Shown: positions 653-3,419 of the stretch, piece by piece
Position numbering within the stretch: position 1 is the stretch's first letter
Layout of the letters: the number at the start of each line of letters is the position of its first letter
Assembly (NCBI GenBank): GCA_001399795.1
Contig: LIHK01000017.1
Coordinates: 1 to 49,051 of the forward strand
Origin: Candidatus Bathyarchaeota archaeon BA2
GTDB lineage: Archaea > Thermoproteota > Bathyarchaeia > Bathyarchaeales > Bathyarchaeaceae
Direction: 5' to 3'
DNA length: 49,051 nucleotides
Program-made: the position numbers and the translations under genes
The notes under the pieces: generated by a model
Database searches by the model: none
What the model was told of the DNA's origin: nothing
What the model saw: only the letters and a program-made list of their open reading frames with translations

Positions 653-2965
653 TCAGCTTGAAATTAACACGTACGATACTCGCTTGCTTAGGGCGGAACG
701 CTGAACTGGAAACCAGAAGGACGAAGGCAAATATTTCGCTGATACACGACTGAAACCATATAACATGTTAACCGATCCGCATGATGGACACCTTGACAAT
801 ATCCCATAAAAAGTCTTTTGACAACTTGCACAATAAGCGAGATGCCGATTGAAAGCGTAAAGTCCCACGGCATATGTCCCAACTATTTCTTTAGTTGCAG
901 ATAAAAGCTCTTTGGGGTCCTGTTCCGAATCGGCGAGCTGTATGACGGCGAGGTGGCCTCCCGGAGTTAATTTATGAAACCTCTCCTCAATGCTTAGGCG
1001 CTCCTTCCAAGAAACGTCGGCTTCTAAGGGTAAGGCGACTAAGTCCGTGTAAAAAGGCTGTTCTCTAGTGCCCCGCGCGCGAACCTTGGCCCACCCACAC
1101 TTTTCTAAATCCAATTCCGCCAGCCTTTTTGCGGCGTCGGCGTCCGGCACCATAGCTAAGGATACTCGAGTTTCAGGCTTCTTTGTGTACCTCTGAACAT
1201 TATGGGAAAGGTATTTTACTATTTTCTCAGCGAAACCCAAAGTCTTGTCGTCTTGATGTAGAGGCTTTCCGAAAAATGATTCAATTGTTTCGTTCAATCC
1301 TATGAAGCTGACGAGGCGGGAGGCGTTTTCAAGTCTGAAGTAATGGTCGCCATCGGCTTTTTGTGTGAAGAAGGGGAGGAGTTGCTCTCCTGCGCGTTGT
1401 TTGAGTGTGTGGTATTTTATTTCTAAGGCGCGTAATGCCATTTCCAGTTGCTCGTCTAGGAGGTCGAAAAAGCGGTTTTCCTTTCCTTCTGCTTCGTATG
1501 ACAGCCTTGGCAAGTTCATTATCACGTTGTCGATGTTTCCCGTTTGCAGGGTGTCTAGCTCCCAGTCTTCTTTCCAGTCGGCGGCAAATCTGCATCCTGT
1601 CGCGGTGTAGGAAACGTGCTCTTGCCCTTTGTGGCAAAGGTTTGCAAAGTATGGGAGACCTTTTTCGGCTGCAAGTTTGTGGGCCTTGAAAAGGAGAGGT
1701 TCGCATTCCCTGTTTTTGAGGGCTTCTGGTCGTATCTTTATGATTATGCTAGGGTTGAAAACGGGTTTATGCTTGTCGTCTTCAAACATCACTTCTAGGA
1801 GGAGAGAAGCAATTAGACGGCTTTCCTCAACAAAATCCCCGTAACAGCCCATTTTCCTTCCGCTAGGTCCAATAACCTCTTTTTCTTTCAGAAAGTTGGG
1901 AACAACAAATTCCAAACCCAGTGAGGCTTCTACGGGAAAACCTTCATTTGAAAGGGACTGATTTAGATTGAAGACAAAGAGGCGTAGGGCTTCTCTAATT
2001 CTCTCTTCTGGAAGGCCGTGGGCAAATGGAGCTAGAAAAATGTTGAAAAAGTCTAACGCCTGTTCTCTGGATATTTCTGTTGAAGCGATTTTGAGAACGT
2101 TGGAAGCTGTTAAAAGCTCGGACTCAAAGCTTTTGGGTGGAAGGTAGGAGGGGCCCGTGGAGTCTATTCTTCCAAGGCTTAATCCGTGTTGAAGAAAGAA
2201 GCGAAGGTCGTGCATGAACTCGTTTGGTTTCAAAATCCAGCAGCCAAGGTTGTTGAGGTGGAGGGTTCCGGAGAGGTGGGCGTCGGCTATGTCCCTTGGA
2301 AGCACATTGAGGAGAGTGTATTCTTCAATCACGGCATCGCCTGCTGCCTTATGAACAGCCTCAACTCCTAAGGATGTGGCGCTTATCGACCTTATTAGCT
2401 GGGTGACGTCGAAGACTGGGAGTCCCAAGCGTGTGAGTTTGTGGCGATATTCTTCAAGGCCCTTTTCAATTAGAATTGTGTTGACGATTTCCCGTATGAG
2501 GGGGGCTGTGAGGTATTTTGTTTTGAATTCTGATAGGCGGTTTTCCGTTTCTCTGGCTATTTTCTGGGCTAGGTCTACGGGAACGTTTGCCTCTTTGACT
2601 AGTGCCTCAACGATTTTGTTTCTGTCAAATTCTTCTATGGCTAAGCGTGAGGTTCGAACAAGCATTTTTCTTCTTTTGAAGAAACGTTCTTCGATTTCTT
2701 CTGTGAAGCCCAAGATCGTTCTGCCGAGGTCTGTGAGGCGGTACTCCTTTGTTTCAACGTCGGGCTCTATGAGATCTGCTTTGAGGAGGTATTTTAGGTG
2801 GTAGGCGAATCTTCCAGCGTCTCGGCTGGGGTTTAGTTTCAGGATTTTCATGAGTTCTGTGTAGGATAAGGGTCCTTTTTCGAGAAGCAGATTTAGGATA
2901 GTCAGTCTTAGGGAGGATGAAGCAGCCTTGAGGGTTCTTAAGCCTCTCTTTCGTCTTCTAGGCAT
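653..2965 (-). CDS. nrdD: Winged-helix + ATP-cone + anaerobic ribonucleotide reductase (NrdD)-like fusion protein, glycyl-radical Gly apparently absent
   Basis: N-terminal ArsR-like wHTH (SSLRLTILNLLLEKGPLSYTELMKILKL...), ATP-cone (VRTSRLAIEEFDRNKIVEAL...), NrdD core (ADAHLSGTLHLNN, GCRFAADW, GNIDNVIMNLPRLSYEA), C-terminal CxxC...CxxC then SRVSAKYLP. Confidence 0.85.
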   Translation of the reverse strand: MPRRRKRGLRTLKAASSSLRLTILNLLLEKGPLSYTELMKILKLNPSRDAGRFAYHLKYLLKADLIEPDVETKEYRLTDLGRTILGFTEEIEERFFKRRKMLVRTSRLAIEEFDRNKIVEALVKEANVPVDLAQKIARETENRLSEFKTKYLTAPLIREIVNTILIEKGLEEYRHKLTRLGLPVFDVTQLIRSISATSLGVEAVHKAAGDAVIEEYTLLNVLPRDIADAHLSGTLHLNNLGCWILKPNEFMHDLRFFLQHGLSLGRIDSTGPSYLPPKSFESELLTASNVLKIASTEISREQALDFFNIFLAPFAHGLPEERIREALRLFVFNLNQSLSNEGFPVEASLGLEFVVPNFLKEKEVIGPSGRKMGCYGDFVEESRLIASLLLEVMFEDDKHKPVFNPSIIIKIRPEALKNRECEPLLFKAHKLAAEKGLPYFANLCHKGQEHVSYTATGCRFAADWKEDWELDTLQTGNIDNVIMNLPRLSYEAEGKENRFFDLLDEQLEMALRALEIKYHTLKQRAGEQLLPFFTQKADGDHYFRLENASRLVSFIGLNETIESFFGKPLHQDDKTLGFAEKIVKYLSHNVQRYTKKPETRVSLAMVPDADAAKRLAELDLEKCGWAKVRARGTREQPFYTDLVALPLEADVSWKERLSIEERFHKLTPGGHLAVIQLADSEQDPKELLSATKEIVGTYAVGLYAFNRHLAYCASCQKTFYGILSRCPSCGSVNMLYGFSRVSAKYLPSSFWFPVQRSALSKRVSYVLISS

Positions 2966-3058
2966 GTTTGGTTCACCATGCTTAACCTATTATAGTATGG
3001 TTCAGTTTAAAAAATTAAAGTAGGATTGTACATGTCGCCTGTAGAAGATAGTGGTCTT

Positions 3059-3143: not shown

Positions 3144-3419
3144 CTATGTGATTTTTGAGAGGGGCCGTCGGCTAGCATGGTCTAGGCTCTGAGCCTCGGG
3201 CGCTCGGGACGGGAGTTCAAATCTCTCCGGCCCCACCACTCTTGGCTTCTGAGACGTGCTTACGCACGTCGATATATAGTTTGTTTCTGGATTAGCGTTT
3301 GTTAGGCGTTGGATTTCTTGTTCTAAGCTTTTTTCACAAATCCTGCTGAGGTTTAAGCCTGTTTCTCTTGCTTTTCGCCAGATTTTAGGGTCGATGCGTA
3401 TGGTAACAAGTTTCTTCAC
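3144..3419 (-). CDS. Short RHH/CcdA-like antitoxin-type protein; ORF C-terminus runs antisense through tRNA-Pro
   Basis: MKKLVTIRIDPKIWRKARETGLNLSRICEKSLEQEIQRL resembles small antitoxin-type DNA-binding proteins and the neighbouring ORF; last ~30 codons are tRNA antisense. Confidence 0.5.
   Translation of the reverse strand: MKKLVTIRIDPKIWRKARETGLNLSRICEKSLEQEIQRLTNANPETNYISTCVSTSQKPRVVGPERFELPSRAPEAQSLDHASRRPLSKIT
3161..3238 (+). tRNA. tRNA-Pro(CGG), CCA encoded
   Basis: GGGGCCG/CGGCCCC acceptor, TGAGC-CTCGGGC-GCTCG anticodon arm, GGGAG-TTCAAAT-CTCTC T-arm, A discriminator + CCA; 75 nt without CCA. Confidence 0.85.

Follow-up and report, generated by a model that had tools for sequence, protein, structure and literature searches.

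The locus analyzed here raises the question of what a ribonucleotide reductase (RNR) scaffold does when it lacks its glycyl-radical residue and is fused to a DNA-binding domain. The window, by which we mean the whole 49,051-nt stretch of DNA from Candidatus Bathyarchaeota archaeon BA2 that was analyzed, is contig C5 of a 1.46-Mb assembly in 57 contigs. A sequence-only reading of this DNA had claimed that one 770-aa open reading frame (ORF) joins a winged helix-turn-helix, an ATP-cone, and a core resembling the class III reductase NrdD, that Ala-Lys occupies the glycyl-radical site, and that the product may be a dead reductase serving as a nucleotide-sensing regulator. Every cell must match its supply of dNTPs to DNA synthesis, and bacteria control the transcription of RNR genes through NrdR. 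In this protein an ATP-cone is coupled to DNA binding, and it is rare in archaea (PMC9110341), so the transcriptional control of RNR in most archaea is unsettled.

Domain architecture and predicted fold

The claimed fusion held, and it is shown by matches to three domains that all exceed the curated Pfam cut-offs. The ORF occupies positions 653–2965 (stop codon at 653–655) on the minus strand, which the earlier reading had not given; all features of the gene described below lie on this strand. The ArsR-like winged helix (residues 13–85, positions 2711–2929) matched HTH_5 (PF01022, 26.0 bits for a cut-off of 22) and DUF7347, and its recognition-helix motif RDAGRFAYHLK is conserved across 50 orthologues. 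The most conserved part of the protein is the ATP-cone with its conserved extension (residues 102–190, positions 2396–2662), within which the PF03477 match covers residues 102–173 at 32.2 bits (cut-off 25.8). The NrdD-like barrel core (residues 202–735, positions 761–2362) was delimited with PF13597, AlphaFold2, and Foldseek, the NRDD match (PF13597) itself extending over residues 202–765 at 296.6 bits. An AlphaFold2 model built with 74 orthologues reached a mean pLDDT of 86, and all of its top 36 PDB matches in Foldseek were class III reductases, with TM-scores of up to 0.79 when normalised to T4 NrdD. The model predicts a class III RNR fold for the 770-aa protein; the occupancy of nucleotide sites cannot be read from it.

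A tRNA-Pro (CGG) at positions 3161–3238 on the plus strand is divergent to the winged-helix gene, and a minus-strand ORF at 3144–3419 that reads through this tRNA is probably spurious. The downstream neighbour, at the very start of the contig (positions 1–330, plus strand), is a gene fragment encoding the C-terminal part of a pentameric ligand-gated ion channel transmembrane domain (Neur_chan_memb).

Loss of catalytic residues

The claim of Ala-Lys at the radical site, with codons GTA TCA GCG AAA TAT, was also confirmed. The codons from 748 down to 731 read CGT GTA TCA GCG AAA TAT (R V S A K Y), with SRVSAKY standing for the canonical RVTGYY, and GCG (Ala743, positions 737–739) falls in the alignment column of the canonical NrdD radical Gly. 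A sequencing error at this codon was ruled out because the closest relatives (83–85% identical) also have SRVSAK.

The loss of catalytic residues is shown to be wider than the earlier reading had seen. The alignment places Glu249 (positions 2219–2221) where canonical NrdDs have the conserved beta-A cysteine (Cys79 in T4, Cys175 in E. coli), which takes part in the reductive half-reaction (PMC4493059; its role is also treated in PMC9669993). Class III enzymes carry MGCR or MCCR in the finger loop (PMC9669993); the window protein has TGCR, which keeps the Cys of the thiyl-radical position (Cys458, positions 1592–1594, by alignment to Prevotella copri NrdD) but not the Met. The formate-site Met is gone. 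Four zinc-ribbon cysteines (C712, C715, C726, and C729, positions 779–832) were identified in alignments and are invariant in alignments of 35 and of 74 sequences. The claim that the GC(R) cysteine and NLPRL remain is correct for the window protein, in which GCR and NLPR are both present, but the GCR cysteine is shared by few relatives.

Residue counts were obtained from an alignment of 137 sequences and cover 32 canonical NrdDs, 50 orthologues from the same order, and 54 other winged-helix members. MAFFT shifted the canonical finger-loop Cys by 1–2 columns, and the register was set by the GCR motif and a phmmer alignment. The radical column holds Gly in 31/32 canonical NrdDs, in none of the 50 same-order orthologues, and in six of the 54 other members (6/104 for the family as a whole), the rest being substituted or truncated. 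The beta-A Cys is present in all 32 canonical proteins and in 0/104 winged-helix proteins. The finger-loop Cys is kept by 9/50 same-order proteins, that of the window included, and by 1/54 elsewhere. No RVTGYY-type tail was found among 75 orthologues from a separate scan of named genomes, a set that overlaps the first. A number of orthologues do not extend past the Gly site, and truncation at or ahead of the zinc ribbon is frequent among ammonia oxidisers and other deep lineages.

Since no member keeps the beta-A Cys, none has all three catalytic residues, and with the radical Gly and the beta-A Cys absent, RNR chemistry of the known kind is not expected. That no winged-helix member looks catalytic is an inference from sequence alone. 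The window protein also scores below the cut-off of the NCBIfam NrdD equivalog TIGR02487 (314.8 against 326.35 bits), a model to which the intact NrdD of the same genome scores 522.6. Relocation of the Gly elsewhere in the C-terminal tail was ruled out for the 50 same-order sequences; the six deeper relatives that keep Gly all lack the beta-A Cys. Thus, none of the outcomes that would have refuted the earlier reading (a Gly elsewhere in the C-terminus, an error at GCG, or homologues that all retain Gly) was borne out. Deep-branching members with Gly at the radical column and without the beta-A Cys include L194, L195, L196, L218, and L220, and they may reveal the succession of catalytic-residue losses.

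Constraint on the domains

Conservation in the family is inverted relative to canonical NrdD. Among the 50 same-order proteins the mean top-residue frequency was 0.78 in the winged helix, 0.83 in the ATP-cone, and 0.56–0.63 in the barrel, falling to 0.33 in the radical tail, versus 0.65 in the ATP-cone, 0.67–0.81 in the barrel, and 0.87 in the radical tail of canonical NrdDs. This indicates that constraint has shifted away from the catalytic regions, towards the winged helix and the sensor domain. Overall dN/dS was 0.06–0.16 (around 0.1), and most pairwise comparisons gave lower values for the winged helix and the ATP-cone. The gene is therefore under purifying selection and not decaying.

Other reductase genes in the genome

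The earlier reading had seen no nrdG in the window, which may be right, and had proposed looking for a second intact nrdD with nrdG in the genome. Both were found: an intact NrdD with RVTGYY is encoded on contig C57, with a glutaredoxin gene ahead of it, and a strong NrdG2 match (210 bits) lies on contig C9. The nrdD gene is thus on a separate contig of the assembly and not adjacent to the winged-helix gene. Given an intact NrdD and NrdG, the cell should not need the winged-helix protein for ribonucleotide reduction. No match to the NrdR model TIGR00244 was obtained in this genome.

Several further NrdD-like sequences were recorded. A third NrdD-like protein of 724 aa on contig C17 (L003:1471–3645) carries an HTH of another, FUR-like kind and lacks the zinc/glycyl tail; it is apparently another degenerate NrdD-HTH fusion. 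A viral origin of this paralogue was considered and rejected, as the viral collection holds no relative. A C-terminal fragment of a canonical NrdD lies at a contig edge of the same genome (C1:30–236, L004). Among the relatives, an extra C-terminal fragment of the winged-helix protein occurs inside a contig of genome G015 (L092:5549–5866), and genome G042 has two nrdD genes with long intein-like insertions (L061:3353–6274 and L091:2178–5438).

Distribution and phylogeny

A search for homologues with the same fusion revealed a family that is widespread in the phylum. Orthologues were detected in 57/61 sampled genomes of the same order, at 43–85% identity, and, within the class Bathyarchaeia, in about 108 of 151 genomes by a count of rows. 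They were also present in all 16 tested genomes positive for archaeal AmoA, which are therefore ammonia-oxidising archaea; NrdR was absent from 16/16 of these. In nine genomes from three ammonia-oxidiser families that were searched individually, the winged-helix gene was the only NrdD-like gene found. In a maximum-likelihood tree the winged-helix proteins formed one clade (SH-aLRT 93) separate from canonical NrdDs, although the tree has long deep branches and its root is placed only weakly. Strict mutual exclusion with NrdR was ruled out: ten same-order genomes (families f2, f6, and f7) have both, and in these NrdR adjoins a separate nrdD.

Gene neighbourhood

Synteny, the strongest of the new lines of evidence, shows a recurrent linkage to RNR genes. 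Among 82 loci with enough downstream sequence, an RNR gene lay directly downstream on the same strand in 34 and upstream or on the opposite strand in none; RNR adjacency was seen in eight further loci beyond these. In Bathyarchaeia the downstream reductase is nrdD, usually with a glutaredoxin gene in between. For the ammonia oxidisers, the reductase concerned is of class II: nrdJ (TIGR02504, 731 bits for a cut-off of 400) comes next in 16/17 loci (8/8 in a first set, 8/9 in a second) with gaps of 38–408 bp and in all three families sampled; the sole exception, G251, is on a short contig. Because the loci share descent, the counts cannot be treated as independent; even so, linkage to reductases of two classes in lineages far apart amounts to at least two independent cases. 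A partner that can be a reductase of either class is not what a class-III-specific subunit would predict. No RNR gene adjoins the winged-helix gene in about half of the loci, and there pyrB and pyrI are often convergent neighbours; pyrB lies beside the gene in 28/57 same-order loci and 11/40 others, often with pyrI.

Candidate promoter elements

A candidate cis element, TACTTTAATTTTTTAAACTG, lies at window positions 3003–3022 on the minus strand, 38–57 nt upstream of the start codon. Its sequence forms a dyad that is near-perfect (ACTTTAA-TTTT-TTAAACT) and lies across the presumed TATA box. In 13 same-family sequences it is more conserved (0.89) than its flanks (0.42 and 0.53). Genome-wide statements on motifs rest on pattern searches. 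When the 20-mer was searched in eight genomes, the promoter of the winged-helix gene was the best place in each, and the only other matches were three single places with three mismatches each. The dyad fits autoregulation, but with its position on the presumed TATA box it could instead belong to the core promoter; no binding data exist, and autoregulation is no more than a possibility here.

The grx-nrdD promoter carries a second candidate operator, also without binding data, namely TTATACAGAATTTTATACAATT at C57:595–616 (L255). The family conserves this element, with practically a single copy in each genome. The conserved element of the nrdD operon, TTATACARAATTTTATACNATT, is unlike the winged-helix gene's own element. 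An operator shared by the two promoters was sought and not found, the elements being dissimilar and each essentially single-copy. Possible common words upstream of the winged-helix gene and of nrdJ in ammonia oxidisers have no statistics behind them and were not used as evidence.

A putative nucleotide-sensing regulator and its alternatives

We consider it likely that this reductase pseudoenzyme is a nucleotide-sensing transcriptional regulator of ribonucleotide reductase. The claim of a dead reductase acting as such a regulator is thereby supported, although DNA binding and (d)NTP binding are still inferences without binding data. ATP-cones are known to bind ATP and dATP and to control RNR activity and oligomers (PMC11226230). 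In the proposed mechanism, the ATP-cone, and perhaps the old substrate or specificity sites too, would bind ATP or dATP; the reductase scaffold would then change its dimeric or oligomeric state and so present or hide paired winged helices. The protein would in this way adjust how strongly its own gene and the adjacent nrdD or nrdJ are transcribed. Most simply it would repress when dATP is high, although the sign of control is a guess. The result would be a control loop like that of NrdR, with a dead reductase and another type of DNA-binding domain as its parts. That RNR genes are the targets of a nucleotide-dependent DNA binding by the winged helix is likewise inferred in the absence of binding data.

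Several points count against the regulator reading: neither DNA binding nor nucleotide binding has direct evidence behind it, and winged helices can also make protein contacts. To these are added the lack of a shared operator, the location of nrdD on another contig, the roughly half of loci without an RNR neighbour, and the co-occurrence with NrdR in ten same-order genomes. If the winged helix is a protein-contact module, the dead reductase could form heteromers with the active one and control its activity or activation. The NrdD fold, the control of RNR oligomers by ATP-cones (PMC11226230), and the adjacency to nrdD favour such a regulatory partner. However, the protein persists in ammonia oxidisers beside the class II NrdJ, a distant fold relative that is unlikely to share the NrdD dimer interface, and the barrel is under less constraint than the winged helix and ATP-cone, so we regard this explanation as unlikely. 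Similarly unlikely is a transcription factor for another target such as pyrimidine synthesis. This would suit the conserved convergent pyrB/pyrI neighbours, which also occur at loci without an adjoining RNR gene, but pyrB, being convergent, has no promoter in common with the winged-helix gene, whereas the recurrent co-directional downstream neighbours are RNR genes (with glutaredoxin) of two different classes.

A still-active radical enzyme, with the radical supplied in trans or by another residue, is very improbable. The finger-loop Cys and zinc cysteines kept in the window protein and near relatives speak for it, as does the Gly retained in a few deep relatives (6/54), but the beta-A Cys is in no member, the protein is present in aerobes, and the same genomes have an intact NrdD/NrdG or NrdJ. 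A decaying duplicate or annotation artefact, to which the orthologues that stop at or before the Gly site might point, is practically excluded by a dN/dS of about 0.1, phylum-wide retention, and 85% identity between genera. Returning to the regulator, a bolder reading is that a single early conversion in this archaeal phylum turned a dead class III RNR into a nucleotide-sensing transcriptional regulator of ribonucleotide reduction, in the role of the missing NrdR, which was then kept beside nrdJ in aerobic ammonia oxidisers after loss of the parent anaerobic enzyme. We lean towards this scenario by a narrow margin only.

Comparison with known systems

Neither such a fusion nor such a regulator was described in the open-access literature that we searched; subscription papers and preprints were outside the scope of this search, and a prior mention is not excluded. 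To our knowledge, no other radical enzyme scaffold has been reused as a gene regulator with its own allosteric domain as the sensor. If the proposal is true, the winged-helix protein would be such a case. A candidate conserved across a phylum beside a reductase gene, including in partly cultured ammonia oxidisers, makes archaeal RNR control directly testable.

With NrdD (PF13597, TIGR02487) the protein shares the barrel fold, ATP-cone, zinc ribbon, NLPR strand, and common ancestry. It differs in the absence of the radical Gly, the beta-A Cys, and the finger-loop Met, in the added N-terminal winged helix, and in its score below the TIGR02487 cut-off. It descends from NrdD, yet it is not an NrdD by the criteria tested. 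The likeness to ArsR/SmtB regulators (PF01022) is confined to a winged helix-turn-helix above the Pfam cut-off: the metalloregulator model NF033788 gave 26.5 for a cut-off of 55 bits, and the effector module is a reductase scaffold. On the one hand, the protein resembles NrdR, the bacterial repressor of RNR genes, in combining a DNA-binding domain with an ATP-cone, in its linkage to RNR genes in many lineages, and in its candidate autoregulation. On the other hand, it has a winged helix in place of the N-terminal zinc ribbon, carries a whole dead reductase, and gives no TIGR00244 match; it is not a member of NrdR because the defining zinc-ribbon domain is absent. By analogy, with DNA and nucleotide binding inferred, it probably works like NrdR.
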